Positions 21,195-59,737 of a stretch of 64,000 nucleotides of DNA are shown in pieces. Origin of the DNA: Antedon mediterranea (taxonomy: Eukaryota; Echinodermata; Crinoidea; Comatulida; Antedonidae); NCBI RefSeq assembly GCF_964355755.1, contig NC_092680.1:19383001-19447000 (forward strand), in the 5' to 3' direction. The position numbers and the translations under genes were made by a program. Every line of letters begins with the position of its first letter. Positions within the stretch are counted from its first letter, which is position 1. The notes beneath the pieces are model-generated. The model had not been told where the DNA came from. It did not search any database and saw nothing but the letters and a program-made list of their open reading frames with translations.

Positions 21195-21586
21195 GGCCTA
21201 TTTCTGCTGCATTAAAAATTTATAAAATAATAAATAAATTAACTACATTTTCTTGAGAGTAGAAACAGGACAAATCTGTGGTAACCGGTTAAAAGGCAAC
21301 GGAAAATAACCGGTTGAAAATACCAATTCAATTCTGTGTTAGAACGCCATTTAACCGGTTATCGCTGGGAAATTTTTAGCTGCAACACGAAATAACGGTT
21401 ATTTGATTGACAGCTGCTGACGTTTGAATTACCGCCAGGACCAATTGCATTTTGGGTAATGATTTTTGTCAACGACCACTCATTGATTTAACCGGTTATT
21501 TCGGAGCACAAATTGAGCAGAAACTTGTTATTATTAATCCATTTAAAAATAAACGGTTAATTTTCATTACGCAGCAAAACAGACCT
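21195..21586. mobile_element. Miniature inverted-repeat element, AACCGGTT family, copy 2
   Basis: Homologous over most of its length to 4140..4556, in the same orientation. Ends are GGCCTATTTCTGCTGC and the inverse of GCAGCAAAACAGACC. Four exact AACCGGTT palindromes at 21283, 21308, 21353 and 21490. Non-coding. Confidence 0.8.
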
Positions 21587-23573: not shown

Positions 23574-25175
23574 TTAACTGTTAAATGCCATTTCTGCAGC
23601 TTCGTCTCTCCATTTTCTTAATTGCTTAAAAGAACTTGGATCCGTATCATCAAAAATTTCCAACCATTGTATGACAGTTCCAATTGCTTGAAAAGCTTTC
23701 TTTGGCGTGACCTTACTTTCTCTATCATCCTCCTCCACTGAAGATGACCATTCTGTGTTTCTTGCCTTAATCAACCATTGGTGATAGGCAGAATCTTCAT
23801 CCAGCCATTCATTCACACTCATGCTATCTTTAAAAGCAAGTTTTTCAAACATATTTTCAAATATCCTTCTATCAACTGAGAGATTTTCATCAACATCTTC
23901 CTCAGTAACTTCTTCACGCATTAATTTTCTCCATGATTTTTCCAATCTATTCGGTGTAATATCATCCCATGCATCAGCACTCCAACAAACTGCATCCTTT
24001 ATCTCCAATTCCTTAATAACTTCAGATTTTGGAATATCCTCATCCTGACAAAAAATGTGTGATAGAAGCTTCATTTTATAAAACATTTTCAGAGATTCTG
24101 CAATTCCTTGAGACATTGGCTGAAGTTTACTTTCATGCACTGAAAGATACATAACACGAATACTACCATCCACAGTTGACAGTTCATCTTCTGGTGGATG
24201 GGCAAGTCCATTATCTAATATAAGAATAGCTTTTGAAGGGATTCCTTTATCTCTACAAAATGTTTCTACAAATGGTACAAAGTGCTCAAAGAACCATCTC
24301 TTGAATAAATTGTTATCCATTCTAGAATTTCTTTGAGTAAAGTAGTTCACAGGTAGAGCATCTATTTGTTTGGAACATTGTTCTAAAGGGGCTTGATGTG
24401 TAAATGCCAAAGGTAATTTGCAAGTTCCATTAGCATTTGCAGAAGCTAATAAGGTCACGCAATATTCAGCAGCTTTTCTCTTGACCTTAGCATTCATTGA
24501 ATTACTGGGCATCAACTTCCAATACAGACTTATTTCATCTGCAGTAAAAATTTGATCTTTAGTGAGTCCTTCATCAGCAATGACTTTCATTAACTTAGTC
24601 TGAATTGGTCCTTTTGTAATCTCCAGATCACTTGTAATCTCCAGTCCACTTGTAATCTCGAGTCCACCTGTAATCTCTAGTCCACTTGTAATCTCCAGTC
24701 CACTTGTAATCTCCGGTCCACTTGTAATCTCCAGTCCACTTCTGGATGCCTTGTCAATGGACTGGATACCATGTCTTCTCTTAAATCCAGCCAACCAGCC
24801 AGAACTAGCTGTGAATTTCTTGTAACTATCAGGATAGAGTTCTTCCGCTAACAATAAAGCCTTGGTTTGAATTAAGGGACCAGACACAACAATTCCTTCT
24901 CTACGTTGCTCTTTCACCCATTCATAACAAGCTTCATCAACCTTTTCATAAATAGCTGAAGATAAGTATGACTTCATTAAAACTTGATCAGGAACTTCAG
25001 ATTTTGAAATGCTACTTTCAATGTTATCTCGCTTACCCCATATTGTGGAAATTGTTGATTTGGACAAATTGAACATATTTGCAACAACAGAATTAGATTT
25101 GCCCTTTTTCCTTTCAGCAATTATTTTCATTTTAGTAGCAAGAGACAAAGTTTGACGTGTCTTTGTAGGAGCCAT
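23574..25175 (-). CDS. Tigger/pogo-type transposase-like protein (CENP-B/Jerky-like), catalytic triad incomplete
   Basis: Intronless 533-codon ORF. Residues 1-54 form a CENP-B-N/Psq helix-turn-helix. Residues about 75-138 form the CENP-B-type second HTH (YEWVKEQRREG...GWLAGFKRRHG). Residues 147-188 are seven six-residue repeats of the type GLEITS. Residues about 205-400 form a DDE_1 domain: D213 in TADE, D321 in LILDNGLAHP, then LQPMSQG where the family has LQPMDQG, so the third acidic position is S355. A tail with AWDDITPNRLEKSWRKL matches Tigger C-termini. In an active element it would cut and paste DNA in the nucleus; domesticated relatives (CENP-B, JRK, TIGD) bind DNA only. The lost Asp argues against full activity, while the intact frame argues for youth or for selection. 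Confidence 0.88.
   Translation of the reverse strand: MAPTKTRQTLSLATKMKIIAERKKGKSNSVVANMFNLSKSTISTIWGKRDNIESSISKSEVPDQVLMKSYLSSAIYEKVDEACYEWVKEQRREGIVVSGPLIQTKALLLAEELYPDSYKKFTASSGWLAGFKRRHGIQSIDKASRSGLEITSGPEITSGLEITSGLEITGGLEITSGLEITSDLEITKGPIQTKLMKVIADEGLTKDQIFTADEISLYWKLMPSNSMNAKVKRKAAEYCVTLLASANANGTCKLPLAFTHQAPLEQCSKQIDALPVNYFTQRNSRMDNNLFKRWFFEHFVPFVETFCRDKGIPSKAILILDNGLAHPPEDELSTVDGSIRVMYLSVHESKLQPMSQGIAESLKMFYKMKLLSHIFCQDEDIPKSEVIKELEIKDAVCWSADAWDDITPNRLEKSWRKLMREEVTEEDVDENLSVDRRIFENMFEKLAFKDSMSVNEWLDEDSAYHQWLIKARNTEWSSSVEEDDRESKVTPKKAFQAIGTVIQWLEIFDDTDPSSFKQLRKWRDEAAEMAFNS
24612..24738 (-). repeat. In-frame 18-bp minisatellite within the transposase ORF
   Basis: Seven copies of an 18-bp unit (on the + strand CTTGTAATCTCCAGTCCA and variants) encode (G/D)(L/P)EIT(S/G/K) repeats between the DNA-binding and catalytic domains. 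The frame is kept because the unit is a multiple of three. Confidence 0.9.
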
Positions 25176-25972
25176 ACCGGCGAGTTAAATAAAAGTTTTC
25201 AAAGTTTCCACTTAACTTCTATCTTGAAATTGGACCATGGATTGGTTACTGCATAATATCTTGGCTTTTTTCGGTCTTTAATTCAATTCTGGAAAGAAAC
25301 GTCAGGATTTTCTCACAACTAAAACTTATTTCTTCTCATGAACTCATTGTTAAAAGAAATCTGTCAAGGCACAAGTAATATTTATATTTGCAAAAAAATT
25401 ATTAAAATTATCATGTTATAATCTGCTTACGGTATGTTTTTAAATGGGTCAATATTTCAGTCAATACTACAGTATTAAACTACATTTTGTTTATCCTTTA
25501 AGCTGTTTAATCCTTTTATAATGTTATTTTAGTAAAAAGTGTAGTTCTGGAGTAATTGCAGTAAAATAATATCTGACAAGTCTCCAATTCAATACATAGT
25601 ATGTAATTATTAGAAATGTATTCTATTTTATTTGAAATTAAATATTTACAATGTGAAAAATATAGTTAGTACAATACCTAAACAAGTATAATTTAACACT
25701 AAATAATATTCATTAGAATACAAATTGATATTGATATTAATATCATTACATAATTATTGTTATATTAAGATGATAAATAATTGTATCTACTGTACAGTGA
25801 TATATTTCTACATTTTTTTAAATGTAAACAAATAAAGGATTTCCTGACATGATATAATCAACCAAAAAGTTGTATATATCCTGCAATTTAAACAATAAAA
25901 TATGGATATACTGTAGTACAGTATCCACAACCTCCATGTTTACTATTATACAAATAATGAATGTTTATGAGT
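25176..25972. other. Spacer upstream of the transposase ORF
   Basis: AT-rich. I looked for an inverted copy of the 23430..23573 repeats and found none. No supported exon. Confidence 0.4.
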
Positions 25973-28876: not shown

Positions 28877-31709
28877 ATTTAACTGCATAAAATATATTTG
28901 TGTATAGATTATTCCCATTTCACTGGATAATATTAAGGATCCACACGCGGTATACAGGGAAATCTATCAAAACACGTCCTAAATATACTGTAGTTAACAG
29001 CTGAAGCTCTCTGAATACTGAAAACTTTCTTGGATAAATTCATACAGTACTGTATTATGTTATTCATGCATTCTAAAACCATACATTCTTAATCAAATAC
29101 AGTACTTTAGGGTTTCTGTTGTTACGACAGAATTGTATGGAAAAATGGGAATAATCTGTACATACAGGATAATATTTAAATTGTAAGCACGGTGTTGTTA
29201 GTATTACAAGCTGTATTTTTGGGATGGTAGACAAAACATGAATCCCAACCACTGCCACAGTCTGTTAAATTACCATCTTTAGCCTATTGAAACAAAAACT
29301 CACTACTGTTGCAGTACATTAGGCAATATGGTAATTTATATTTAGTGAAAATGCTAATATATTGCAATTGTATAGTTAAATAAATAATGCACATGTGTTG
29401 AACGCATTCAGAATGACAATTGACATATGTTAACAGTGAAATTTATACAATTGAATCTCCTTGTTATTCACTGCAGACATTTAAAAATAATCTGCGTAAA
29501 ACATTTCTGCTGTGAAAAAAACCGGAAGTACTAACAAAATACAAAAACATTTTATTCATCAAATCACAAATTACAATAAAATAATAGTATGTACAATGTT
29601 TCAAGAAAATGATGAAATGGGATCTCAGGATAAAACAGTGTGTACACAATCATAATATCATCTTCAATATCAGAATGAAAAATTGTTTGTGTTTTTTTAT
29701 ACTATAGAAAAAAAAAATAATACACCAATGATTTATAAAATATTCCCAATCTCAATTGCATTACAGTATCAGAAAGATTAGGGAACTTACATTTTCACAA
29801 TATGCTATATAGAGAAATAATTTTAGAATGACTATTGGACTCAATAGCTGCATTGTTGAATGTGGAGCATAATTAGGAAAGGTCATTAAAGATAACAAAA
29901 TATACCATTAGTAAAAATGTGCACTGACTGACTTGCTAATTTTGACATCTTTTCACAACTGAACAGAAAATCAACATTTTCCTTTAAATCACACAATCTA
30001 AATACTGTATACTGTATATGAAAAATATGAATGTATTTCATTGAAAATTCACTTTTCTTATCTTTTTCTTTCATAATGTTTGAAGAGAATTTTAAAGAGT
30101 ACTGACAGGCGGTCCCTTAAAAGTCATGTATTGTAACATATTAATGATAATTTATGCAGCAAATGAAACACAAGCAAAACGATTGGTTTCCTGCTTAAGT
30201 TACATATGATCTCTGTCTGAACACATGTTATAATATTTGTGATTAAAAATAAATATATTAAAAGAGACTGCATAAATCTTTCATGGTGAATTAACACATC
30301 CTGGAGTGAAGTTCATTGATAAGAACAGTTTAAATTTAACTATCAGCTCGGCCTTCAAAACTGTTTTACCTTGAGCTTAAGTTTGCTATTGATCACTGAA
30401 ACAACATATGAACACTTTGAAAGCAATAAAATAAATATTGAAATAATTGTAATTAATTAGGCACAAAATGCCTTATTTGCTACATACTAGAGGAGCATGC
30501 TTGCTCTGGTATAGCATGGAGAAATAAGTTGAGATTTCTTCATGAGTATAGTACTGTATTAAGGTATTATTGAATAATTGTAGAAAAAGCTACTTAAAAC
30601 ATTGTACTTGTTTCACCTATATTCTCAGTACATATTAATTAGCACGGGTAATCTATTCTAAATTTAAAATTGTGATAAAAAAAACTGTTTTTGGTTTTCC
30701 AAACTTGATTTTTCATTCAAAATAATTATGAGAGCTTTATTAATACAGGTACACTAGTAGTACTATATATCTTGAAATTATAGTATATATATATAATTAT
30801 AGTATATATAGACAAAACCATATAAGCCGCATACTGATCACAGTGTGTTAGCAAAAACCTTGCTTGTGGAGAATGTAAATCACGTACCTACATAAATATA
30901 GTGAGAAAATTAAAATATAGAAAAATGATATGAGAAAATTATATTCTTACCATATAAATATAACTGCTGAAATATTGTATAAGTCCATTGGATTGCATAA
31001 GAATTAGATCACATTGAGCATGCTGTGTAGTACATGCCTTCTATAATACCAGACACACCACATAATATGAATGAAACGATTTTCACTGCATAAAGCAATG
31101 AGGATTATACAGTACGTCACAGATCTACTACGTCAATGGCTGATCTGCTCAAGCGGAACTAATGATATGCAGGATAATAATCACTACAGTATTATGTATA
31201 TTCATATATGATTGCTATAATTCCCTATTTTTAATACCTTTTTACAACAATTTAGAGGGAAATAATTTGGTGAAAACTCATAATCTCTATTAAGAGAACG
31301 AAAAACATATTTCGATGGTTTAGAATTATAATGTATCTATATATAACCTACAGTATGTATTATTGAATTGGAAATTCAGTGGGGTTCTAAACCCACAGCG
31401 GCATTTTAACCATCATTTATCTATTTGATGCTATTTAAACAAAATTTGTTTAAAATCTACTGAAAGAATTATTAAACATACATTGCTATTTTTATATTCC
31501 ATTATTTAATAACTATTAATGTCAAAGGTCAGACTGTATTGCATAACTGTATTATTACATAATTTATTGTGGGTCGTACTGTCAAATTCTACTGCAGTGT
31601 CATTCGCTTGTCTTTTTTTTTAGATCAAATCTATGTTCTATTTAAAAGTCAGACGTTCTAAAAAGGGGACTGAGCTAGATGGTCATCCTGAGACAGAAGT
31701 AAACTGGAA
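28877..31709. other. Gene-free spacer
   Basis: AT-rich with many ACTGTA/TACAGT strings and a TATATA tract near 30780..30810. I find no supported exon, RNA gene or recognisable element. Confidence 0.4.
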
Positions 31710-33504
31710 CTAGACATGAAACTCGTCACTTTGACGAGTTAGTTATCCGCACGACAAACGCCACGTGCACGTCATACGTTGGAATATTGGACACAGAAAA
31801 AGATTATGGCATTATGACCTGAACTGAAGAATATGATATGTTGTTATTGCTGAATTCTGTTATTTTGTGTCATATAGTATACACAGTACAATATGTATAC
31901 ATATCACATACAGTGTAGAATAGATGAAATTGCGGGACCTGCTATTTATTCCAATTTTTAAAATGTTGACGGTTTCAAAATGAAACGTGAATGTAGCAAT
32001 TTCGGAAGGAAATTATCTCAGCAGAAACATATTAACGTGTAGAAGAAATTTTAATACGTGAAATATTAATGCGCGCTCTTTTAAATGTAATGAACTATGA
32101 CGCAAAAGATGAAAATATGACTTTGTTTATTTAACTGGCCATATGATGACGTCACAACATCTGATTGGCGAAAAGTTCACATGATTTCGTATCTACAATC
32201 CAATAGCTTTCTGAAAACGTTTTAATCGTGATTATCACATTTTATTCTTACGAGCTATAACAGATTAAAATTTACTGTAAAGATGAAATTAATGACGCTG
32301 TTAATTAAAATTTTTAGGCATGATGACGTCATAAAAATTAAAATATTTTGAACTCATGCGTAAGATAGTTGATTGACCTACATAATATTAAAATCTCGGA
32401 GAAAAAGGAATACAGATAGGCGTGATGCCCTCCATTTAATATGATGAGCAATAACAAAAGAGACAAAAATCCTATATTTTACATTCGTGTGGCCATACGA
32501 TGATGTCACAATGTCCGGTTAGCCATATTGATTCATGATCCGATTTCTACAACTCATCAACTTCCAGAATATGTAATTAAAAAAAAGTTTACCTCGTTGT
32601 TTAGAATCTATGACTGTTTAAAAAAAAAAAAAAATTTTTTAACTTTTTCATCAAAAACGCACGTAAAGTATCCAATTCAACGTGCCCGTATGACGTAATT
32701 GTAAGTCGAAATTGTTTTAAAATTGGTAAAATTACTATAAAAGGCTGGAAAAACATAATTCAATAAAAAAAAAATACTTTTAGCGCTACGTGCGCACCAC
32801 GCGCATAAAATTGTTCGCGCGCGTGGGAAATTTTGACATGCTCAAAATGTCATGATCAGCGTAGAAAGTTGATTAAAAATTAATTTTGCGCATTTTGAAT
32901 TTTAAATGCGCGTGCGCGCGTAACTTTGTGTAAAACACGCACTTTTTTTCCACAGAAAGTTAGCGCATGATATAAATTAAACTTTTGCTAAGTTTCAATT
33001 TAAATTGTTATATGGTTTTAAATCTATGTTAAATACGCGAAATTCATAAAATCGTGCGTAAGTCACGTTGCGCATTTCTGACGTCATTCACAATAGGAGG
33101 TGCACAACTTCACGTGAATGCCCATATGTTGACAAAGTTATGAAATTTTATGTTTACACATTTTTTATATAAGCGAGACACAAAAATAGAGGAGAAATGC
33201 GCGTGCGCGCGTAACGTCTTGTAAAACATGGCATTTTTAATCCACAAAAAGGTTGCCCTTGATATGACATAAATTTTCAGAAAGTGTCAAAATAAAATTA
33301 TGCTTGGTTTTTAGCCTATGATCAATCATAAAAAATCATAAAATCGCACGTAAGTCACGTTGCGCAACTCTGACGTCATTCAAAATAGGAGGTGCACAAC
33401 TTCACGTAAATGCCCATATGTTGACAAAGTTATAAAATGTTATGTTTACAAGTTTTTGAGATACGCGAGACACAAAAATGGAGGAGAAAGAAAGAAGAAT
33501 AATA
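31710..33504 (+). repeat. CRE-rich long repeat, monomer I (locus 1)
   Basis: Starts CTAGACATG then ACTCGTCActtTGACGAGT (8-bp-stem hairpin, 31721..31739) and TTATCCGC. The body contains diverged 177-bp repeats with TGACGTCA at 32147 and 32324 and a mutated TGATGTCA at 32501. The tail is rich in GCGCGTGCGCGCG. This monomer has the tail region twice (about 32900-33190 and 33195-33504). Non-coding. Confidence 0.85.
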
Positions 33505-35101
33505 CTAGACATGAAACTCGTCACATTGACGAGTTAGTTATCCGCACCACGACAAACACGTCATACGTTGGAATATTGCACACAGATAAAGATTATGGCA
33601 TTATCACAAGAACTGAAGAATATGATATGCTGTTAGTGCTGAATTCTGTCAATTTTGTGTCATATAGTATATACATGCAAACAGTATAATCTGTATACAT
33701 ATTACATACAGTGTAGAATAGGTGAAATTACGGGACCCGCCATTTATTCCAATTTTTAACATGGCGACGGTATCAAAATGAAACACTTAGATAGCAATTT
33801 CAGAAGGAAATTATCTCAGGAACAACATATTAACGTGTAGAAGAAATTTGAATACGTAAAATATAGATGCGCACCCTTTTAAATGTGATGAACTATTACG
33901 CAAAAGATGAAAATACGACCTTTTTTATTTAACTGGCCATATGATGACGTCACAACATCCGATTGGCAACATTTTAACATAATTTCCTATCTACTATCCA
34001 ATAGCTTCCAGAAAAAGTTTTAATCGTGATTATCACATTTTATTCTTACGAGCTATAACAGATTAAAATTTACTGTAAAGATGAAATTGATGCCACACGT
34101 GATTTAAATTTTTAGGCATGATGACGTCAAAAAAATTAAAATATTTTTTACTCATGCGAAAGATAGTTGATTGACCCAGACAATATCAAAATCGGAGTGA
34201 AAATGGAAAACGGATAAGTGGAGATGCGCTCTATTCAATGTGATGAGCTATGACGAAAGATACAAAAATCCTAAATTTTATATTCGCGTGGCCATACGAT
34301 GACGTCACAATGTCCGGTTAGCCATATTAATACCTGATCCGATATCTACAACTCATCTACTTCCAGAATATATAATTAAAAAAAAGTTCACCTCGTAGTT
34401 TAGAATCTATGAATGTTTTAAAAAAGGCATAATTTTGACGAATTTTGACAAATTTTTGAACTTTTTCATCAAAAACGCACGTAAATTATCCAATTGGATG
34501 TGCCCGTATGACGTAATTTTAGATCAAAATTGTTCAAAAGTTGGTAAAATTACTAGAAAAGGCTGGAAAAACATGAATCACGCGAAAAAATTTATTTTCA
34601 ACGCTACGTGCGCACCGTGCGAGTAAAAATATGCGCGCGCGTGGGAATTTTTGACATGCTCAAAATAACATGAAACGCGTAGAAAATTGATTAGAAATTG
34701 ATTTTTCGCATTTTGAAATTTTAAACGCCCGTGCGCGCGTAACTTCTTGTGAAACATGCCATTTTTTTTCTACAGTCAGTTAGCGCAAGATATAAATTAA
34801 ACTTTTGTTAAGTTTCAATTTAAATCGCTATATGGTTTTCGATCTATGTTAAATACGCGAAATTCATTAAAACGCGCGTAAATCACGTTGCGCAATTCTG
34901 ACGTCATTCACAATAGGAGGTGCACAATTTCACGTGAATGCCCACATGTTGACAAAGTTATAAAATGTTTTGTTTACAAGTTTTTGAGATACGCGAGACA
35001 CAAAATTGACAGAAAGAAAGAATAATACAGAAAAAAAAAAAAAAAAAAAAGATGATTTCATACAGTTACAAGGAGTTATCCGCTACTAAGCGGATAACTA
35101 A
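33505..35101 (+). repeat. CRE-rich long repeat, monomer II (locus 1)
   Basis: Joined head to tail to monomer I. TGACGTCA at 33945, 34122, 34300 and 34899. Ends with a run of about 20 A and a terminal hairpin 35075..35098 (10-bp stem GTTATCCGCT/AGCGGATAAC, loop ACTA), directly followed by CTAA overlap. Confidence 0.85.
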
Positions 35102-35165
35102 TAAAACTTGTTGTTGCCATAAACAGTTTTTCCCAGACAGTAGAAACAGGCCCTAAGACTAAAAG

Positions 35166-35390
35166 TAGTGGAGCTGCCGATTGGTGGTTAACATGACTTC
35201 CTTATAATCCAAATGTCCAGGGTTCAATCCTGACCTAGTGCATGGGTTGTAACTCACGACTCTTTCAACTCCACTACCTAAGCCTCAAATGAGACTTAGT
35301 TTATAAGCACGATCAATTATAAAATAGTTTATCCATCCTGTAATTGGTGAGTTTGTGGTCGCTATTGGATGCTTATGACATTTTTTTAAA
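35166..35390 (+). mobile_element. tRNA-derived SINE, copy 1
   Basis: tRNA-like head with a degenerate A box (TGGTTAACATG) and a clear B box (GGTTCAATCC at 35221), followed by a shared body that contains AAGCCTCAAAT, ACTTAGT and TTTATCCATCC. The same order occurs at 54030..54245. Confidence 0.65.
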
Positions 35391-36436
35391 TAAGAGTTTT
35401 AAGCACATGGGAATAGGTTTACCAAAGTATTTTCACAATAAAAATACTGTTATAACGCCCAGTATAAGTTTTTGAATACACTGACAAATTATTATAGCAT
35501 CTTTTATCATAACTGTATCTCTTTCTTCGATATTGGTCATGCTTTGTTGTTTCACTCTTGATATAACAACAATTGCTTTTATCAAACTTGTTGAGTGTTT
35601 ACTGTTTAAAGCCAACTTAGAGAGGTTAAAAAAGGGTTAAAGATTATAGTTAAAAAAATAAGGGCTGCCTTGTTAACCAGGGATCATTTTATTCTAGTTT
35701 GACAAAGCTCTTTGGAATTGCAAATGCATTCTTCACCTCACTTCTGCTGAATATGACTTATATAACTTTTTTATGCTTCACATAATATGTATTGTACAAC
35801 TGGAACATTTTCATAAAGTATTGTTGCTACAGTTTTTTAAACTAAACAGTACAATAAAAGGCAATTACTATGAAATACCTCCAAAGAATTTCTATTAAAA
35901 CTGATCCATAAGAATTCTGCTAGCCCTAAAGGTAGGCTTATGTCGACCTGGAACTGAAAACGACTCAACTAAAAGGTAATTGTGTAGAGCACAAGAACAC
36001 TAATAAATGTCAACTTTCAGTTGGAATTAAAAGGAACTGAAAATCTGTTTGCAAGTGCTTATGTAGAAATGAGTCGTAGTTACCCATATCATTATTTGTG
36101 CACAGGATGCAATTTGCATTAAAAGAGGCACCATTGTGAGCAAACATTTATATCAAATTGCCCATTCCACGGGTGACACAACTCAAAGTTTCAGTTTCAT
36201 AAAATTAGATTATGTTCAACATAACGTAACTCAACTGCAGTTAGGTTAAAATTTAGCACAACTTTGAGGTGGGGTAGATTGTGTTGAGTTGCTCAGAGGG
36301 CTTATTAATATGTTCAATTGAGAAACAAACCAACTCAAAAAATAAAACAGATCTTAACTATTGCATCATCCTACTACACAAAAAACTGCCATCTCATGAT
36401 TTTGAAGAAACAAGAGATTAGCTGCTTGATATTTAA
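35391..36436. other. Spacer, nothing recognised
   Basis: AT-rich DNA without a supported exon or repeat. Confidence 0.4.
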
Positions 36437-36576
36437 AGTTCTGTCTTCACCATCAAACTAGTTTAACAAAGAAAGTGTGATGCCAAAATATGGTAGTGAT
36501 ATGACATCGTCATGTCCATATGTGTGCACATCACATTTTTTTGTCATAAACAGTTTGATAGTGTAGACAGAGCTTT
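36437..36576. mobile_element. TAGTGTAGAC-family MITE, copy B
   Basis: Inverted orientation relative to copy A in its interior (TATGGTAGTGATATGACATC). The right end is TTTGATAGTGTAGACAGAGC. The ends pair with each other. Confidence 0.75.
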
Positions 36577-38261
36577 ATACAGAACGTATTATCAGATGGA
36601 GTTATACTTCCATATCGTAAGAAAGGTTACATTTAATAAAGATCATAGCAGCCTAGTATTCAGACTAGATTTAACGAACGCTTTCGTTAGAAAAAGTGTC
36701 ACAGATTGAGGCGAACATTTGGCATGCAAGAATAAATTGTATTGGTTCGAGGTCAAAATCGTTAATGCATAACTTTCGTATAGTAGGCTACTGTAAATGT
36801 ACATAACCTACTACTTTTAAGTTTTCGTAACGAACGGGAGGTCAGTGTCATATAGAGGTGGCTTGTGCTTAATCTTTTCCTAATCCTGACCTATTAGGTT
36901 GTACGCCGCTTCGTAGGTGTGAACAGGCCCTAAGAGTTTGTTTCTGAACAGGTTTAATACTGTATTTTAAAAGAACATTACAAATTCAATATGTTAACAC
37001 ATTAATTTAATATTTAATTACTAATAACACAAAAACATAACGTCCCTCAGAGCACATGTTAGTAGATTGGAATGTTACAAACAGTGAATATGTAATTATT
37101 AAATCGAAACTCATTTAATCTGTCAATAAATTATTTATGAATAATCCATCATATATTGTAACTACTGTAATTTAATTTATTGTTTATCTTATCCACAATA
37201 ACAGGAATTATTGTGTCGATCCTACAATACAGGCAATTAAAGATAATTGTTTTTTTTACCAAAGAAACTGGTCTATTTAAAGAATACATTTCAAAATAAA
37301 AATAAAATAAACATAAATTGAAGCTTTGAATCGAACATCGACGTAAACAAAATACAATTAGAATGTTTGAAAGCATGCCAAAGGTTTCATTCATAAAAAT
37401 TAAGAGTAAACTGTAGGGTTCCCTAAAAAACAGCACTGGCTTATAGCCAATTAATCTTTTACTAATAATTGGCTCAAACAAGAAATTGTTTTCACTTTAA
37501 CCTTCCAAGACTAGGCAGTTTGTCCAATGACTATACTGTATACTGCACTTTCCCTGGTAATTTTATATATTTAATAGTGTGTATGATGTCAACACGTTTG
37601 AGCTATTGTAACAACAATAACATAAATATATTATTAAGTGTAATCTGGCCATTTGATTGGTTGATGTTGTATCATGTGACATACATTAGTTTCTCCTATT
37701 TCAATGATTGCAGCAACTATTGCACTTTCAGCTTTGATGAAATGATTGTGGAACATGGTTGGTCAGACTATTTAATATTCAATTCTTCACCTCATTATTT
37801 GAAAACAATTTAACATTCTTTCCAACCACTTATTTTAGGGGTTTTTTTTCTAACCTGGTGGTATTGATTTTATAATACAATTTTCACATTAGTTTTACCA
37901 ACAAAATATTTTTACGCTCGATTTGAGGCAGTATTATAAACTTATTTGAATTACAATGGACAGTTTACAATCACTAAAAACTTAACAAATTTTGGCGCCA
38001 TACGATACAAAACATAGGTATCACCTTACAGTGCATTAAATGGAAATAGAGATGAAAAAATCTTTCAGCACAACACATGCAACAAAGAAAGGTACACACA
38101 GAAGTTTTTGTTTAATAAATTACAAACAATTGGAATATTTTTATAGTTTATTTTTTGGTTAATTTATGATACCTGATAGTATAGATTGTTTTACTAACAA
38201 TGTATTATGGACCACTTTTAGGTTGTGGGATGATGACCAAAAAGGGGATTTTTTTAAATTT
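36577..38261. other. Spacer, nothing supported
   Basis: Two overlapping open frames on opposite strands near 37149..37813 are AT-rich and low in complexity; I do not accept them as genes. No repeats recognised. Confidence 0.4.
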
Positions 38262-38345
38262 TATTTCATTTCAACAACATTTTAGTCCATCCAGCCGAAG
38301 CTGATCATTAAGGACCCTTAACAGAAATACTTCATGACAAGACAT
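38262..38345 (-). mobile_element. 3' end fragment of a non-LTR retroelement
   Basis: Read on the minus strand: AAGGGTCCTTAATGATCAGC..., GGCTGGATGGACTAAAATG, then GAAATGAAATAAAATTT. A short 3' UTR ending in an A-rich simple tail is typical of RTE/CR1-like retroelements. Too short for family assignment. Confidence 0.4.
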
Positions 38346-38479
38346 AAACATGTAACAATAACAATTTAAAATAAATATAATTTGTATATATAATAAACAT
38401 TACATTTGTTAGTGCAAGGAATTTGTTTGTGGAAAACAATATTCCATCATTTTATGAATATTTGAGGATTTCGACTTAC

Positions 38480-38695
38480 CGATTTCTTACAAGAATAATG
38501 AAAAGCGAAATCAGAATGTTAATTTGTATATATAAATATTTGTTGATGGATTCAAACATGTACTACAAATGGAGAGAGGCATTATATACCAAATAGATAC
38601 AAGTTTTGGTCCTCTCTCCTTCATCTTTTTTTTTGTGTAATGTATTATACCATATGGACTATATGAAATAAAAGTTGAATTGAAATTGAAAATTA
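38480..38695 (+). mobile_element. Possible 3' end of a non-LTR retroelement with terminal hairpin
   Basis: Hairpin GGAGAGAGG...CCTCTCTCC (38569..38617) followed by ATGAAATAAAAGTTGAATTG and (GAAATT)-type tail. Same style as the minus-strand fragment 200 bp away but a different sequence. Confidence 0.35.
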
Positions 38696-39086
38696 CATAT
38701 TCTCCCTGTGGCCTTCAATATCTTAATAACAATTTAAAAACGGGACATAATCATTTTTAATCTTGGAGGTTAGCATTTGGTGGAGGTAATATATATAATT
38801 TTTGATTGCTCGTTTTTCTTCCGTTCATTGAATGTCTTTTGTACTACAGTATATTCAAATAATACTCAGGAATTTTATTGCGATTAAGGTGGAGAATTAC
38901 CCAGCATTAACTAAACTTCAACTAAAGGTATTTATTTAATACACCCATAAGTCACCCTCCTAAAAACATTAGAAAACAAGTATTTGTATAGATTCTGCAT
39001 GAATGAATTCATTATAATAATAGAAATAGTAGAATCAATGTATATTTTAGTAAACAAGTAGAAGTTGAGAAAAAATAAAATAACAA

Positions 39087-39361
39087 GAATATAGGATTTA
39101 GAATCGAGAGTCTAACTGTCTAAATTATCTTATTTCAATGAAAATACTGAGTTATTTCAATGAAAATACTGAGTTACTTCAAATTATGGAAAGTTAAACA
39201 TTTTTTTAATAGGAAACTATACTTACAGTACAGAATATAAGATTTAGAATCGAGAGTCTAACTGTCTAAATTATTTTATTTCAATGAAAATACTGAGTTA
39301 CTTCAAATTATGAAAAGGTAAACATTTTTTTTTTAATAGGAAACTATACTTACACAGTACA
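39087..39361. repeat. Tandem duplication of about 146 bp
   Basis: Copy 1 (39087..39232) and copy 2 (39233..39361) share GAATCGAGAGTCTAACTGTC and all that follows. Copy 1 additionally holds a second copy of the 22-bp segment beginning TTATTTCAATG. Non-coding. Confidence 0.85.
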
Positions 39362-40675
39362 GTGCAAACACTTCAACCACAAAATTTAATTTCCCTGTTT
39401 TCCTTTGATGACCCAAAAAGTGTAATCAAAAACATGCCTTATCAGCAGACAAATACATCATATCTTTTGTTAATCTGTAACAAAATAAAACAATGCAGAA
39501 AAATGAAATGAAAAAATTTCCATATTTCGGACTTCATAACCATAGAATAGTTCAGTAGCTCAATAAATAATAAAAGCCACTCATTTTATGTATGTTTTAC
39601 ATTTTGTAGGGGTTTTTTTTGCATTGAAAGAAATAAAAAACAATGCAATTAAGAGAGAACATTTCTAGAAATAAATGATGTTATCAAAGCAGCAGTCTAA
39701 ACATCTTTAATGTACAAAAGTAAACTTTGCATTGAATTGTCAGTTGAATGACAGTTGACATTTAGGCAATTATATTACAAACAGTTTCAAATACATGTGT
39801 TATTACAAGTTCAAATGTACTTAGAATTGAAACTCCAGCTGCAATATATTGACAATAACATATGAATCATTCATATTTTTGAAAAAAGAAATTACTTAGA
39901 CTTGCTACGACCTATGACCTTGTTATGAATTCATTGTGTGCATACATTTCTGCTGCTTTCTCGATTTGACAAGTTTTTGAGTATTCTAGGACAAGACGAC
40001 AAGGAATGATAAAATAAGAATGTCATTTGCCAAGTCACCAACGTTGATTAGAGTTAAAATTGGTGAAAAAATATGTTTTCTTTAAATTTGCAAATGTAGT
40101 TCGTCACCATTAGATGTAAAAAAAACACCTAAAACAATAATTTGGCTAGCACATGGTTAATACATGATTACAGAATATGCATTGGTCAATTTAGGGATGT
40201 AACCAAATTTTTCATGCAAAAAATCTTTTACATATTATGATAATTAGAACTGGAAAAATGCACTAAATATCAGAAATGGTCCACCTAAATTATTTTGTCT
40301 AACTTTTTTAGTAAATTTATTTCATATATGATCATAAAACAGAAAACAAACGTTACAGAGTATAATCACCAATATACTGTAGCTACATATTGAATATTAA
40401 AACTTAATACATATGGTTTGATAATTCAACTTGTTTTCAATTATATTCCATGGAGATTATTGTATTGATAACATATTCATGACTTAAGCTTATTTACAGT
40501 ATAACTTATTAATCAGGATATCTACCATATCACATTACCTACCCCAACTGCCACTTACCTAAATTGGATAATTTCTCATATTCAATTATAATTAATGTCA
40601 TACGTATTAATGTCATTTAAACTAGTTTATTTATTTTCCTTTATAGTTTGGAAACTAATTATAAATAAACAATTC
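39362..40675. other. Spacer, nothing recognised
   Basis: AT-rich sequence without a supported exon or repeat. Confidence 0.4.
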
Positions 40676-40799
40676 TTATCTACACTACCAAACATTATGT
40701 GACACAAAAAATGTGATGTGTCCATATATGGACATGATGATGCCATCACTACCATATTTCGGCATATCAGATTTGTGATAGTATATAGGCAGAGCTTTA
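40676..40799. mobile_element. TAGTGTAGAC-family MITE, copy C (decayed)
   Basis: Retains TCTACACTACCAAAC, ATGTGATGTGTCCATATATG and CACTACCATATTT; the right end is eroded to GATAGTATATAGGCAGAGC. Confidence 0.65.
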
Positions 40800-41333
40800 A
40801 ATAGACTTTGGAGCTCAAAATTGATCTGAAATTGACCAAATTAGTATGTGTGCTGTCAATCATACAATCTACTTCACCGCCAAGTTTTGAATACCAGATT
40901 TTGTAATATTGAAAAAATCATGCACTTGCTATAAAAGAAAATGAAGCAAAAAAAAGAAAAGAACTCTTCCTACAATAAAAAAACAAAATAGGAAATACCA
41001 GATAATATTATAATCACATACACATGCTCCAAATTCTTATAATACAACACCGGTAATATGTATTATGCTTTAACTTTATCCAATAATCCATTCAAATTAG
41101 AAAAAAAAAACCTTTCTATACAGACATAGGATAGTTCAAAGAAAAGCTTATAAACTTAGAAGTGAAATAGTTTGGTCGGATACTTTCATTCAGGATATAC
41201 TGTAACAGTAGTGTGCGGATATGTTTCTTCAAGAGCAGAAAAGGATAATAATCTATTGTACCTACAAGATTTTGAAAGTCATGGAACACATTCTTAGATC
41301 TCTTTATGACCTAGATTTTCTATGGTAATACAA

Positions 41334-42030
41334 AAAGCGTTTTGTATTCTCGGATACAGTAAGAACTATATAAAATTTATGTGTAAATACAGATATCCGA
41401 GACGAGTAGGGGGTACCCTGTTGTTAGGGTATATAACAGTACAGATAAAAATGACTGCAACGTACAGCCTATGTTCCAGCTTTGTGGCTACGAGGTATTG
41501 TGTTTTGATTGCAATTCCACGAGATGCATTGTTTGATCGTGATCCTACGAACTGCATCGTTTTTTTTATCTTTTTTTTATACGAGAAGCATTGTTTTATA
41601 ATAATAATAATACCACATTTATATAGCGCCCTTTTCATGAGTAATCATGCTCAAAGGCGCTTTACAAGCATTATTACCCCAGTATTTTTTTGGGATCAAA
41701 CACGTATTGAAACATACTCCCATAATGCAGCCGGTAACCAGCGCAAAGTTGTGTCTAGATCTAACTGGGTACCCATTTATACACCTGGGTGGAGAGAGGC
41801 AACGTAAGTAAAGTATCTTGCCTATGGATACAAGCAATGCGGCGAGAGTTGGATTCGAACCTAGGTCTGACGATCGGTAGTCCAACACACTGCGCCACAC
41901 GCCCGTAATGTATAATAAACACCAGTGTTATCAATGAAGCATTTTTTATTCTCGGATTAAGGACTATATAAAATTTATGTGTAACAGTATACAGTATCTT
42001 TCGAGACGATTAGGGGGTACCCGGGTATAT
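41334..42030. repeat. Direct repeats of about 90 bp flanking a SINE
   Basis: The segments 41334..41430 and 41936..42030 share ATTCTCGG, ACTATATAAAATTTATGTGT and CGAGACGA(G/T)TAGGGGGTACC. The last string also occurs inverted in the SINE at 49.8 kb, so these may be fragments of an older SINE family duplicated around a younger insertion. Confidence 0.6.
41597..41905 (-). mobile_element. tRNA-derived SINE, minus strand, with ATT-repeat tail
   Basis: On the minus strand a tRNA-like head gives an A box TGGCGCAGTGTG (41897..41886) and a perfect B box GGTTCGAATCC (41861..41851). The body has TAAAGCGCCTTTGAGC and AGGGCGCTATATAAATG, then a (TTA)n tail. Open frames across it on either strand are not genes. 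Confidence 0.8.
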
Positions 42031-42054
42031 GGTAGAAGGAATATCTGTGTCACT

Positions 42055-42152
42055 CACAGTCATCAGGTGCCACATGAACGTCCAATCACAGTCATCAGGT
42101 GCCACATGAACGTCCAATCACAGTCATCAGGTGCCATTATGAACGTCCAATC
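42055..42152. repeat. 32-bp tandem repeat, three copies
   Basis: Three units starting CAGTCATCAGGTGCCA and ending AACGTCCAATCA; the third has a small indel. Confidence 0.95.
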
Positions 42153-45100
42153 AGATATGGACGACTTTGACCTGGCATTGTAACTCAACATGTTCCCACA
42201 ATTGTATTGCCCAACCAACAAAAAAGTTGAAATATGGTATGACACTGATGACAATTGAAGTTGATCAACGAATGAAGATTTTATCTGAATATGTAGATAA
42301 ACTATCTTTAACACAACCATTATACTGATAACCAAGACAATACTCAAACCTCATTAAACTGATTTCTGTTATGTGAAATTTGAATACTGTATATATTTTG
42401 ACAGAAAGAGAAACCTGGCCTGCAGCAACAATTACACAAAACAACAGTTTATTATTGGTGTTGGCAGTCTATGAGTGCTGCTTACCTGGATAAACCAATA
42501 ATATCCTTCTCCTCCAAAGGGAGTATATTTACGAAAATAAATTCCATTAACCATCCCTATCAGATAATGGTGCTATCCACGAACAGTAAAATCTAACCAT
42601 CCCAGATACCACTGTCATTATTTCGTTTCATTGTGCTGTCGTCTATGTACGTGTATAGAGCAACAATTTGAAAGTATTCTACGAATTCCTGAAGCTTTAA
42701 TTGTTAGTGTGAAACCAAGCCAAAGAGAACTCTGTTACCATTGTTAACATGACACATTGCAAACTGTGTAATAGAAAAATAAATAATAAAGAAGAATACA
42801 GTATGGGAAAGAAATTCAAAACTCGGATTCTTCTGCTTAATAAATAATATGAACTGTTAGATCATAATACCAAGTTATAATTAAAAAATAATTAATTTTG
42901 AGGTAAATCTAATTGAAAACCTAATTTTCATTATACCGTAGTCAAATCTAATTGGAAAACATCTTTGTTCACTTTAACATACCAAGACACTTATTATTTC
43001 TCAGTTTCATAATATTGTATGCATTTTTTATGAAAAATTAACTACTGTATAAATAAAGTTTTCATTAATCAACTCTAAACTATGCTACACTACCTCCCAC
43101 ATAAATTGAATGAAATATTGGTACTTTATTTAAATGTATTATTTTTTATTTTCAAGAAATTACTATAGTATCAGTTCAAATAATCTTCATTCTTCTAACT
43201 AAAACAAAATCTTTACCTTACAGTATAATTAATTTTCTAAGAAGCATACCATTTATTATGAAGATGATACAGTACTTATTAAAATGCCAATACTGTAAGT
43301 TAAACATCGGTGGATAATAAAAGATTTTATTTATGTTCTGAGAGTAAACACAATTTCCTTTCACCCTCAACTGTACTATCTAGTCTTAATTTTATACGAA
43401 TCCGAATAAAACAGTCTATGATTTCCCAAAAAAAGCAGAAAATTGCAGAAACAGATGAAGAGCAAAAAAAATGTAGGTTTTCACAAAACAAACCCATCCA
43501 ACATTGTCTTTCCATAGAGAAAGTTTTCCACGGTCCTTTCCACTGGTTCCCTTTTCCATATGGGTGGTTACGGTATGGTTAACTTTATACTTCCATATTT
43601 TTTCTCTATTATGTAATTTTAATTATACTGTAAGAAAGAATCTGTGTACAGAAATGGATGGTGTTGTCGGAATTCACAGTCCCTATTATAGAAAAATTCT
43701 GAATGCAAGTGTATCTAAATTGTAGTGGGCTCAGCCACAAACCCTAATTTCAATATACCTGTATCATATGCTAAAGCTTCCTGATGATATCTTGTCTCAC
43801 AGTATGGTGAACTAGGATTGTGTAGCTAGATTTCTTATTGTGCAAACTGCCAGCCAGCCAGGATATAGCGGTGCTTGGTAGTAATAATACCTCTAACACC
43901 ACAAGAAACAATAGATACAGAATGTATGAAAATGTTACATCCTACATCCAAAGATAAGGACAATAGATTTAATTGGATATTATAAAATAATCCTTATAAT
44001 AACGACACACCTTGGCAACATATTACCCGGGTCATCGAAACAAAAATAATTTTTCAAAAAGTGTTCACGATTTTTTCAAGGTTAGACAAATTACTTCCAA
44101 GCCAACAAGTAACAAATACAATATTTCGACAGCAAAGAGAAAGTTAGTTCCACATGCATTGATAATGACAATGAAGAGAAATTTATCAGTTTCGAAAAAC
44201 AAACTGCGTACGTAACCATTTCTCGAATATTCTTTTAAACACTGATTATCATAATACAGTATAGGGCCTTCATTTTATGTGGTGTATTTCTATTCCCAGA
44301 TTTTTATTTACATACACCATTCCAGGGGCGGATCCAGCATTATAGATTAGGGGAGGCTAAATATTTCATAAATGATTAAAAAGTTCCTTCGGGTTGCAGA
44401 AAATTAAAAAATAGTGAATAATTTATTTTAAAAAGACATGGCTGTTGCATTGAAGATGAAATGTACAATATATTGCCTATATATTTTATAAAACAACATC
44501 GATGCACGCTTACAATTTAAAAACAATTTGAAACAATTTATTTTGGACTAAATTACAGCATGTTTTAGACCATTTTAATTTTAAGAAATCAGAAATTCCC
44601 ATGTGTGTACAAAATTGTCATGTCTCCTCCTCCATCAATAATTCTACATTCCACGAGACTTTTAAAATTATTTGCTATTTTTATCTCATTCTTCTTTTTA
44701 TCAAATTAATTAATCTCCAGTATACACAGTTATATGGTTTCTTGGAGTATCTCTATGCCTGTCACATTTATATTAATTTTAAGTTTACACAATATAGTCT
44801 TTTCAACAGGAAGTTGTACAATCTATAATAGTCTTTTATGTAGAAACGCCTAGCCTTGGGCGTCTGACCTGGATTATTATTACCTTTAGTACAATTTAAT
44901 TATTATAATTGTATCATTTTTTATAATATTAATAATATTGTAAAATATTAATCCTTGTTCAATTTTAAAATACAATATCAACGAGGAAAGGACAATTTAA
45001 AACATGACTTGATTATTCAAAAGGGACACTTAGGCCTACACTTTTTGCAAGAGGGCAAAATCAAATGTTAGCTTGATTATAGAAGTTCATAATAAACTAT

Positions 45101-45841
45101 GTACTGTAGGTTTGTGTTAAAAATCAGACACCTGAATTTAAGTTACACAAAATTTGGAGCTCCCAGTGCATACTATTAACTATTTTTTCTACAGGTAGCT
45201 TTTTTCATATTTAATATTTAATTAACTAACATTATATTGTACTGAACACAACAACTATATTCTTTATTCATTTTCTTTAAAATCTGATTTTCCTTCATTT
45301 ATAATATCATAAAAATAATATAAAATAGGAATACACATAGACAATTATACTATGAAATAAATATTATAATTATTATACATCAGTGCAAAATTACTTCCAT
45401 TTATTGTCATACATAGAAATTATGTTTGCTCTGAGATTTATTTTATTTTATTACAGACCCACAGTTAATCATCGCCAATAACAGATACAAATACTTAAAT
45501 GAAAACCGAACCAAACCAACATGAACATGAAACAATAACAACAACAAACCATTAACCCTGCATTAAATAGCCAACTTATTAATTACCTCCCTATATTAAT
45601 ACAAACATGACCTTAAAAGGTACATTACAGTGCGAAAGATAGATACTGTAGATAGGTCAGTGAACATAATCATAGCATCCATTGATATCTCCAAATCTTT
45701 TATACTTCAATTAGTCTATCTATTATTTCCAATGAGGTCATGTCACAGACAATTTAAAAAGAAAGTACTGAGCAGGTAGATAGTACATGCACTTGATGGT
45801 GAAAATAAACAATGAAAAGACCATTCAAACTTTGTTCCTGT
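42153..45841. other. Gene-free spacer
   Basis: AT-rich. I looked at the longer open frames (for example 43310..43582) and found no family resemblance or splice context. No repeat family recognised. Confidence 0.4.
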
Positions 45842-45999
45842 GCTCTGTCTACACTATCTATCAAACTAGTTTGAAAAAAAAAACAGTTATGTTCCAAAAT
45901 ATAGTAGTAATATACCTAAATATGGTAGTGATATGACATCATAATGTCAATACTTGATTACAATTTTACATAAAGTTTGATGGTGTAGACAAGGCTTTA
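45842..45999. mobile_element. TAGTGTAGAC-family MITE, copy D
   Basis: Left end GCTCTGTCTACACTATC, right end AAAGTTTGATGGTGTAGACA; interior TATGGTAGTGATATGACATC as in copy B. Confidence 0.75.
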
Positions 46000-46034
46000 A
46001 ACTCAATTCACATGTAGAAAATCTTATAATTTTT

Positions 46035-46110
46035 TATTTTATTTATTTTATTCAAACTCATTCAACAGCGGGTAACCCGCCCCTTACAGAATGGAATAAA
46101 CTATACCATA
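46035..46110 (-). mobile_element. Possible retroelement 3' tail fragment
   Basis: TTTATTTTATTTATTTTATTC followed by CATTCAACAGCGGGTAACCCGC: on the minus strand a small GC hairpin (GCGGGTTACCCGC) and then an A-rich simple tail. Resembles the tail region of non-LTR elements; no more can be said. Confidence 0.3.
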
Positions 46111-46197
46111 TAAAAATATATATAAATCTTAAAATCTAGCAATACAAATTTATACAATTTTACTAATTTTATTACAAAAACAATTATAACGGTCAAA

Positions 46198-47734
46198 CTA
46201 GACATGTAACTCGTCACTTTGACGAGTTAGTTATCCGCACGACAAACGCCACGTGCACGTCATACGTTAGAATATTGCACACAGAAAAAAATTATGGCAT
46301 TATGACCTGATCTGAAGAATATGATATGTTGTTAGTGCTGAATTCTGTCAATTTTGTGTCATATAGTATATACATGCAAACAGTATAATCTGTATACATG
46401 TTACATACAGTGTAGAATAGGTGAAATTACGGGACCCGCCATTTATTCAAATTTGTAACATGGCGACGGTATCAAGATGAAACACTAAGATATAGCAATT
46501 TCGGAAGCAAATTATCTCAGCAACAACATATTAACGTGTAGAAGAAATTTGAATACGTTTAATATTGATGCGCGCTCTTTTAAATATAATGAACTATGAT
46601 GCAAAAGATGAAAATACGACTTTTTTTATTTAACTTGCAATATGATGACGTCACAGCATCTGATTGGCAAAATGTTCACATGATTTAATATCTACAATCC
46701 AAGAGCTTCCAGAAAATGTTTTAATCATGATTATCACATTTTATTTTGACGGGCTATTACAGATTAAAATTTACTGTAAAGATGAAATTAATGACCCACG
46801 TAATTAAAATTTTTAGGCATGATGACGTCATAAAAATTAAAATATTTTTATCTCATGCGAAAGATAGTTGATTGACCTAGACAATATTAAAATCTCGGAG
46901 AAAAAGAAATACATATAAGCGTGATGCGCTCCATTGAATGTGATGAGCAATAACGAAAGACAAAAAAATCCTATATTTTACATTCGTGTGGCCATATGAT
47001 GACGTCACAACATCCGTGAGGTAAAAATTCTGCATGAATTCATATCTACAACATATCTGCTTACATATTAAGTTAAAAAAATTAGGGGTAATCGTTGATC
47101 CTGAGAAGCTATAAAACATTCAAAATAGGCATAATTTTGACAACATTTTGTAACTTTTTCAACTAAAACGCGCGCAAATGGGCTAAATCAACGTGTTCGT
47201 ATGACGTAATTTTAATTTGAAATGATGTCAATCTTTTTGAAAATGACTAGGAAAGGCTGGAAAATCACAATTCAAGAGAAAAAAACATGATTTTCATGCT
47301 CTATGCGCACCGTGCGCGTAATATTTTTCGCGCGCGCGGTAATTTTGTACATGCTTAAAATGACATGAAACGCGTAGAAAGTTGATTAGAAATTATTTTT
47401 GCGCATTTTGAAATTTTAAATGCGCGTGCGCGCGTAACTTTGTGTAAAACACGCAATTTTTTTCCAACAGAAAGTTAGCGCATGATATAAATTAAACTTT
47501 CACAAAGTGTCAATTAAAAATCACTTTTAGTTTTTAATCTATGATCAATCATAAAAAATCATAAAATCGCGCGTAAGTCACGTTGCGCAACTCTGACGTA
47601 ATTCAAAAATAGGAGGTGCACAACTTCACGTAAATGCCCACAGGTTGTCAAAGTTATAAAATGTTATGTTTACACATTTTAGAGAAACGCTCTACACAAA
47701 AATAGCGAGAAAGAAAGAAGAATAATACAGAAAA
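46198..47734 (+). repeat. CRE-rich long repeat, monomer III (locus 2)
   Basis: Same start as monomer I. TGACGTCA at 46646, 46823 and 47000 (spacing 177 and 177). Its head resembles monomer II, its body monomer I. A GCGCGTGCGCGCG tail is present once. Confidence 0.85.
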
Positions 47735-49383
47735 CTAGACATGTAACTCGTCACTTTGACGAGTTTGGTTATCCGCCGCGCAAGTGGTGAAACATTAACA
47801 TTAAGGAGATAGGTTGAGGACAAAAGGAAGTGTTCACGTTGGCATTATGACCTGAACTGAAGAATATGATATGTTGTTATTGCTGAATTTTATTATTTAA
47901 ATCCATATATAGTATAGACAGTATAATCTGTATCCATATCACATACAGTGTAGAATAGGTGAAATTACGGGACCCGCTATTTATTGCAATTTTTAACATG
48001 TTGACGGTTTTAAAATGAAACGCGAAGGTAGTAATTCCGAAAGCAAATTATCTCAGCAACAACGTATTAACGTGTAGAAGAAATTTGAATACGTGAAATA
48101 TTGATGCGCGCTCTTTTAAATGTAATGAATTATGACGCAAAAGATGAAAATACGACCTTTTTTATTTAACTGGCCATATGATGACGTCACAACATCCGAT
48201 TGGCAACATTTTTACATAATTTCGTATCTACAATCCAATAGCTTCCAGAAAAAGTTTTAATCGTGATTATCACATTTTATTCTTACGAGCTATAACAGAT
48301 TAAAATTTACTGTAAAGATGAAATTACTGCCACACGTGATATTAATTTTTAGGCATGATGACGTCAAAAAAATTAAAATATTTTTAACTCATGCGAAAGA
48401 TAGTTGATTGACCTAGACAATGTCAAAATCGGGGTGAAAATGGAAAACGGATAAGTGGAGATGCGCTCTATTCAATGTGATGAGCTATGACGAAAGATAC
48501 AAAAATCCTAAATTTTCTATTCGCGTGGCCATACGATGACGTCAAAATGTCCGGTTAGCCATATTAATACCTGATCCGATATCTACAACTCATCTACTTC
48601 CAGAATATCCCATCCACAAAAAGTTGACCTTCTAGTTTAGAAATTACGACTGTTTAAAAAAAGGCATATTTTAAACGAATTTTTTAACATTTTCATAAAA
48701 AACGCGCGCAAATTGTCCAATTCGACGTGCTCGTATGACGTATCTTTAAGTCGAAATTGTTTAAAATTTGGTAAAATTACTAGAAAAAGCTGGAAAAACA
48801 TAAATCACGCGAAAAAAAATCGTTTTCCATGCTACGTGCGCACCGCACACGTAAAAATGTGCGCACGCGTGGGAATTTTTGACATGCTTAAAACGACATG
48901 AAACGCGTAGAAAGTTGATTATAAATTAATTTTGCGCATTTTGAAATTTTAAATGCGCGTGCGCGCGTAACTTTGTGTAAAACACGCAATTTTTTTTCAA
49001 CAGAAAGTTAGCGCATGATATAAATTAAACTTTTGCAAAGTTTCACTTTAAAATGTTATTTGGTTTTCGATATATGTTAAATACGAGAAAATCGTTAAAT
49101 CGCGCGTACGTCACGTTGCGCAATTGTAAACATCATGAAAAGCTTCGCTTGACGACGTTACATAAATTTCAAAATGTTAACATAGGTAACAAAATGTTAT
49201 GTTTGCAAGTTTTAGAGAAAAGCGTTACACAAAAATCATACAGAAAGAAAGAAGAAAAATAAAAAGTTGATGTTGATGATTTCGTACAATCACAAGAGGT
49301 TATCCTGCAACTTCGTTGCGGATAACCAAAAATATTGATCCCATACAATAACAAGGAGTTATCCGCCAAGTGCGGATAACTAA
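47735..49383 (+). repeat. CRE-rich long repeat, monomer IV (locus 2)
   Basis: TGACGTCA at 48182, 48359 and 48537 (spacing 177 and 178). Its head resembles monomer I, its body monomer II. The extreme left part after TTATCCGC is replaced by unrelated sequence. Ends with two hairpins, 49298..49327 (GGTTATCC...GGATAACC) and 49358..49380 (GTTATCCGC/GCGGATAAC, 5-nt loop). Confidence 0.85.
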
Positions 49384-49765
49384 AAAGAGATCAATAGAAT
49401 TATCTTTAACAACACAATTATTAAAAAGAAGACAAATACGTGAAATAAATCCATTCTTGGTAACATTAACACGACAATACGGCACATAAAGAAGATTACA
49501 TTTGGAATTACGAGTACGACAACCAACAGCTTTAACATGAAAGGAAAACAAGGATAAATTAAAACAAATTGTTACCAGGAAATAATTTCGCCAAAACCTA
49601 TACAAAACTACCTTTAAACTGCTAATCTACACATTTATAAAATTAAATAACAATAAAAATATAATACAACACTATGTTTGTAGACTTAAAATTCAGTTTG
49701 ATTTAGCAATATTATTAAACTAAATTTTTAAAATAAAATTATTCCCTGGTTGAATTGAAATATTT

Positions 49766-50029
49766 TATTTATACTGGGCAACCTCTTGAGTCAAAGACTG
49801 GTTCCCAGAGGGCCCAGTTATAATCAGTGGCTGTGATGTACTAGTACACCGGGATAACCCCCTACTCGTCTTGAAACATTTACTAGTGCACATGAGCTAG
49901 ATGTGTACACTGGACCTACAGTTTATAGCCCTTATCCGAGAAGACTAGTCTTCCACCAGAACTATGGACCTTGCCAATGTTATGGTTACGTAATTACAGT
50001 CCCACTGTCTTAACCGCTCGGCCACTCAC
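49766..50029 (-). mobile_element. tRNA-derived SINE with Leu/Ser-like head
   Basis: On the minus strand GTGAGTGGCCGAGCGGTTAA is a tRNA-Leu/Ser-type start and A box (50029..50010). The B box is degenerate. The body contains GACGAGTAGGGGGTTATCCC and ends near CAGTATAAAT. Distinct from the other two SINE types. Confidence 0.6.
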
Positions 50030-59649: not shown

Positions 59650-59737
59650 AGTTTACTCTTATATTTTTTGCTACCGTATTTGAGATATAAGAACATTAAC
59701 AAGAACATTTAAAAATTCTAGATGCGCATCATCCGAT

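Follow-up and report, generated by a model that had tools for sequence, protein, structure and literature searches.

Previous work on HINE / DINE-1 elements of mite, Culex and Drosophila described subterminal inverted repeats (subTIRs), a palindrome beside the 5' subTIR and a 3' stem-loop (PMC4067079), and in the Cg_HINE of the Pacific oyster a left and a right module flank satellite-like repeats 160-180 bp long (PMC7492417). All of these traits recur in a repeat of the crinoid Antedon mediterranea that occurs twice in the 64,000-nucleotide stretch analysed here (positions 19,383,001 to 19,447,000 of NC_092680.1; the window). A sequence-only reading of this DNA had described a dimeric non-coding repeat with CRE palindromes every ~177 bp, and that description was borne out. 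Our overall reading, to which we assign a probability of roughly 0.6, is that the repeat is a non-autonomous Helentron (HINE) spread by Helentron enzymes, and that its CREs were kept as sites for host bZIP (CREB/ATF) factors.

The first insertion is a tandem dimer on the plus strand at 31710-35099 (monomers 31710-33504 and 33505-35099), delimited by sequence, repeat families and head/tail alignment; the second, also a plus-strand tandem dimer, lies in an A6 run at 46198-49381 (monomers 46198-47734 and 47735-49381) and was delimited by sequence and paralogous empty sites. In each monomer, CTAGACATG(A/T) comes first, the palindrome AACTCGTCACTTTGACGAGTT second and the subTIR GTTATCCGC third; sequence and alignment place this head palindrome and subTIR on the plus strand at 31720-31740, 33515-33535, 46208-46228 and 47745-47765. 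In each dimer, the final monomer terminates in GTTATCCGC-loop-GCGGATAAC-T, and the element has a subterminal inverted repeat at either end, with GTTATCCGC close to the 5' end and GCGGATAAC at the 3' end. By the same evidence, the 3' terminal hairpin of the first dimer (plus strand, 35075-35098) is GTTATCCGC-TACTAA-GCGGATAAC, with GCGGATAAC an inverted copy of the 5' subTIR, and that of the second (plus strand, 49358-49380) is GTTATCCGC-CAAGT-GCGGATAAC, with a variant second hairpin just upstream at 49298-49327. The inner monomers lack the 3' end in both window dimers, the hairpin of the first dimer being found in its second monomer only. Genome-wide, the exact head 19-mer occurred 1,876 times and its reversed control not once. 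The 3' hairpin tail is likewise dispersed in the genome and also forms short tandem runs; tails of 65-74 bp were seen in runs of up to about six variants at C11:15781557-15781987, C6:15654984-15658049 (L014), C9:15804076-15807140 (L022) and other places, as if terminators accumulate or elements land beside each other's ends.

A search of window positions 31000-50000 against Rfam gave no credible match to a hammerhead or other known RNA, and tblastn detected no remnants of Helentron coding sequence in the window. Immediately beyond the 3' end of the first dimer, the stretch 35165-35290 includes a tRNA-like B box (GGTTCAATCC) and may be a SINE. The remainder of the window holds clustered cytochrome P450 exons, which occupy both strands (596-10525; Pfam E down to 1e-86), exons of a Patched/sterol-sensing-domain gene on the minus strand (16241-19291), an open Tc5/pogo-type transposase frame of 536 codons on the minus strand (23577-25184; DDE_1 and HTH_Tnp_Tc5) and a tandem tRNA-Asp array (59588-60716) with a unit of ~161 bp, in which ARAGORN called six genes.

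Coding relatives of the repeat are present elsewhere in the genome. A genome search with the Helitron_like_N profile returned 87 matches, of which dozens fall in ~3,000-residue ORFs, and at all four Helentron loci chosen by their Rep domain, not by the repeat, the CRE body lay downstream of the ORF. At C3:30989000, the order along the joined stretch is head (1418), a 3,087-aa ORF (9061-18321), CRE body and 3' hairpin (21527-21549). The encoded protein combines Rep and a PIF1-type helicase in one ORF (Helitron_like_N, 5.3e-37; PIF1, 1.1e-28), with an Exo_endo_phos domain (residues 2562-2752, E 4.3e-9) C-terminal to PIF1 (2098-2300), and its full series of OTU, DUF6570, Helitron_like_N, PIF1 helicase and Exo_endo_phos is the published Helentron layout (PMC4067079). 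This copy also has its ends in common with the HINE, namely the head CTCGTCACTGTGGACGAGTTAGGTTATCCGC and a tail that agrees at 93% over 43 nt; head and tail were seen alongside the CRE body in this one of the four coding loci. Among the coding loci read, bodies beside ORFs were at best ~80-90% identical to the window copy, and ~80-83% at C3:30989000; a direct coding partner at >95% identity was not among them. The long 5' region of the latter copy (L055 2487-7308) contains nested tandem repeats of its own, with units of ~1.6 kb.

The second dimer interrupts another dispersed repeat (window 46020-46197 and 49382-49560), and empty copies of its insertion site therefore exist: ~20 near-complete paralogous matches run uninterrupted across the insertion point (at least 20 copies of the host repeat). 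The four empty sites that were fetched read ACGGTC-AAAAAA-GAGATC, and the filled site reads ACGGTC-AAA-CTAG...AACT-AAAAA-GAGATC, with three A before CTAG and five after AACT. Comparison of filled and empty sites thus indicates that the second dimer entered an A/T run (A6) without target duplication, a result that sets one insertion against several empty sites, the exact point within the A run not being resolvable. Helentrons are known to insert in A/T runs in this manner (PMC4067079). The whole second dimer behaves as a single insertion. Since the ends are shared with a coding copy, the body recurs at four coding loci, the domains follow the Helentron order, the empty sites reveal no duplication and the inner copies are truncated at their 3' ends, we conclude from sequence that the repeat is almost certainly a HINE.

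The same observations bear on the idea that the repeat is ordinary satellite DNA, built of nucleosome-sized units and without transposon identity. Such an account would suit a unit close to the nucleosome repeat, the long tandem arrays of ~1.53-kb units in which the element also occurs, and AA/TT/TA power at 10.4 bp above that of shuffles (0.3% of which reach the observed value, at one of six periods tried). It is at odds with the defined ends of the element, its dispersed insertions, the clean empty sites and the recurrence of the body in coding Helentrons; we consider it very improbable, and as a full account it is refuted by the empty sites together with the shared ends. The closeness of the spacing to a nucleosome repeat had been put forward as a hint, and the 10.4-bp signal lends it something, but with one of six periods the link between nucleosomes and the 177-bp step stays suggestive and is too weak to carry weight.

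Within the body, the twelve phased palindromes of the window were all found where the sequence-only reading had placed them, recorded from sequence and without strand: in monomer 1 at 32147-32154, 32324-32331 and 32501-32508, in monomer 2 at 33945-33952, 34122-34129 and 34300-34307, in monomer 3 at 46646-46653, 46823-46830 and 47000-47007, and in monomer 4 at 48182-48189, 48359-48366 and 48537-48544. Eleven are perfect TGACGTCA, the sole mutated site being that at 32501, which reads TGATGTCA, and the steps are 177/177, 177/178, 177/177 and 177/178 bp in monomers 1 to 4, so that coordinates, spacing and the single mutation all agree with that reading, as does the sequence match of TGACGTCA to the CREB/ATF site (CRE). 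Matches to the CRE with at most one mismatch numbered 40 in the window, a count that none of the shuffles attained (15.5 +/- 3.5 expected). In the 354-Mb genome, the strict triple GATGACGTCA-N-GATGACGTCA-N-GATGACGTCA occurred 807 times versus 14 for the reversed control, and in-phase CRE pairs 2,930 times versus 58. The excess in the window and that of triples and pairs genome-wide therefore exclude chance as the source of the pattern. Perfect TGACGTCA occurs 25,377 times in the genome (10,612 for the reversed word), and counting three sites per triple and two per remaining pair gives ~5,000 in-phase sites, or about one fifth of that total by arithmetic. Across genomic copies the spacing ranged from ~173 to 181 bp; wide variation, which would have spoken against a phased repeat, was absent, and the spacing is best called near-constant rather than fixed.

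Further CRE-like sites lie in the element body, with TGACGTCA at 33079, 33371 and 34899 and TGACGTAA at 32691, 34509, 47202 and 47594. Those at 33079-33086, 33371-33378, 34899-34906 and, as TGACGTAA, 47594-47601 belong to a downstream repeat of ~290 bp and are of average conservation (no strand assigned). A perfect C/EBP-type palindrome, TTGCGCAA, precedes the downstream TGACGTCA by 11 bp, measured between their starts (consensus columns 1355-1373; window 33360-33378 and 34888-34906), and the TGACGTCA next to it shows no special conservation. In older copies elsewhere (e.g., C1:25976796 and C1:26543076), the series is extended one step farther upstream by a fourth in-phase TGACGTCA, at a position that reads TGTTGACGG or TGGCGACGG in the window copies. 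This fourth phased site was present in older subfamilies and has decayed in that of the window.

The body had been taken for an old 177-bp tandem repeat. The ~177-bp step of the palindromes stands, but ungapped self-matching of the body consensus peaked strongly at one offset only, 355 bp (53% identity versus 28 +/- 2.6%), and not at 177, which rules out a simple 177-bp satellite. In the four window monomers, units 1 and 3 are 59-66% identical to each other versus 49.6% for shuffles, in agreement with an alternating similarity of the units: it is strong between units 1 and 3 (z 14.5), weak between 0 and 2 (z 4.7) and between 1 and 2 (z 3.6), and undetectable between 2 and 3 (z 0.9). The 355-bp peak and this alternation together indicate that the 177-bp step is the half-period of an A-B-A-B arrangement. 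As judged from the consensus, the body today is an A-B dimer in which the palindrome and its surroundings are common to both halves; an ancestral unit of 177 bp is possible.

To what extent the palindromes have outlasted their surroundings was assessed on copies drawn by profile from all fetched loci; matches in two segments that had been picked by the CRE pattern were dropped, leaving 79, which are related rather than independent (~26 effective sequences at 93% identity). Substitution at the three phased CREs was 1.6, 2.4 and 4.1% versus 11.5% for the whole unit, and their CpGs changed at 0.9, 0.9 and 4.8% versus 13.9% for body CpGs. The triple fell in the best 0.5% of all positions taken at equal offsets, and in the best 0.2% after similarity weighting; among the 21 copies below 92% identity it was only in the top 2.4%. 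Over all copies, 125 of 155 phased sites were intact versus 82 expected. At places located by their flanks alone, mostly in young arrays, 91 of the 100 matches listed carried perfect TGACGTCA; for the CpG-matched control block of this genome-wide core count, the chosen flanks matched only 15 places. On the available copies, then, the core has changed less than flanking sequence has on average, and the earlier statement that the palindrome survived better than the rest applies to the three phased sites. It does not single out the palindrome: around consensus columns 288 and 466 lie blocks that equal the CREs in conservation at the same offsets, and at columns 975 and 1366 the element has two further CRE-like sites, both of average conservation. 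Better-than-average conservation is thus a property of the phased trio that other parts of the unit share, and because columns 288 and 466 are equally conserved, the constraint may belong to the whole unit.

These figures also have to be read against a passive origin, in which the CREs were already present in the copies that gave rise to recently active subfamilies, their apparent conservation reflecting the youth and common ancestry of the family. Most copies are indeed 92-100% identical and lie in young arrays, other blocks are conserved equally, and spread continued after the upstream phased site was lost. Against this, in the six copies whose identity to the consensus is below 85%, the phased CREs were intact at 14 of 17 sites where 3.8 were expected from the other 8-mers of those copies, and the CpGs of the phased CREs, although CpGs are expected to decay fastest, are among the least changed. 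We regard passive inheritance as unlikely, but as an explanation to be taken seriously.

We propose that Helentron Rep/helicase/endonuclease proteins would recognise the 5' subTIR/palindrome and the 3' hairpin, and that the element would have multiplied through them by rolling-circle transposition. Spread by Helentron proteins is well supported by homology, mobilisation being inferred from shared sequence. Where an inner copy lacks the 3' hairpin, the process would read on to the next terminator, and dimers and longer arrays would arise because inner copies are often of this kind; 3'-truncated inner copies have been described in tandem Helitrons (PMC7492417).

The TGACGTCA sites sit in the A-B-A-B (355-bp) block that is common to the 3' non-coding part of coding Helentrons. 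A host bZIP factor of the CREB/ATF type may bind them, promoting transcription of the element or open chromatin, and the sites would then have been kept because of this binding, as proposed by analogy with HSF-1 on Caenorhabditis Helitrons. We favour this explanation of the CREs only tentatively, at rather less than an even chance. Within an individual coding Helentron, this CRE-bearing block is downstream of the ORF, which is no ordinary promoter position, and an upstream position would arise only where copies are arrayed or an intermediate is circular; this placement and the loss of the upstream fourth site in young copies count against a CRE role.

Alternatively, the palindromes could be iteron-like sites for the element's own Rep or an accessory protein, serving transposition and not transcription. 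A body common to the 3' non-coding part of coding Helentrons and kept in non-autonomous copies would be expected of such sites, several blocks of the unit are conserved besides the palindrome, and palindromes repeated in phase would be fitting sites for a protein that acts as a multimer. Yet TGACGTCA is a known bZIP site, and we know of no Rep that binds it. Moreover, the published Helentron ends are subTIRs and a 3' palindrome (PMC4067079), which here have a distinct sequence of their own. We judge the iteron explanation to be quite unlikely. Returning to host bZIP binding, a further extension would tie Helentron spread itself to a CREB/ATF-type factor, with selection keeping the CRE array, so that the element seeded ~5,000 potential cAMP- or stress-responsive control elements; we consider this doubtful. 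Should the sites prove to be bound, about one fifth of the perfect CREs in the genome would trace to this family.

As a kind of element, a HINE is ordinary; what sets this family apart is an unusually well-preserved TGACGTCA series in thousands of copies scattered through the genome. In the literature searched, neither CRE arrays in Helentrons nor a direct link between Helitrons and CREB sites was reported, which is not proof of absence. As in HINE / DINE-1, tandem repeats (there in some copies) and coding Helentron relatives in the same genome are present, and the target is T-rich, with variable T runs and no target duplication (PMC4067079). Unlike in those elements, the arm of the terminal 3' hairpin is here an inverted copy of the 5' subTIR, the repeats carry phased TGACGTCA and the element forms long tandem arrays (PMC4067079). 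In contrast to Cg_HINE, the repeats are strongly diverged, have a 355-bp period and form a block that is also present in related coding Helentrons (PMC7492417). The oyster study could not link Cg_HINE to coding elements (PMC7492417), and the link that was missing there is supplied here by coding Helentrons in which this satellite-like block recurs. What had been an unexplained CRE repeat can now be tested as an instance in which a rolling-circle transposon distributes a single transcription-factor motif. The nearest parallel is found in the Caenorhabditis Helitrons with heat shock elements, where a rolling-circle element likewise distributes a stress-factor motif in many repeated copies (PMC6927752); HSF-1 binding was measured in that system, whereas the motif here is a CRE, a putative bZIP binding site.
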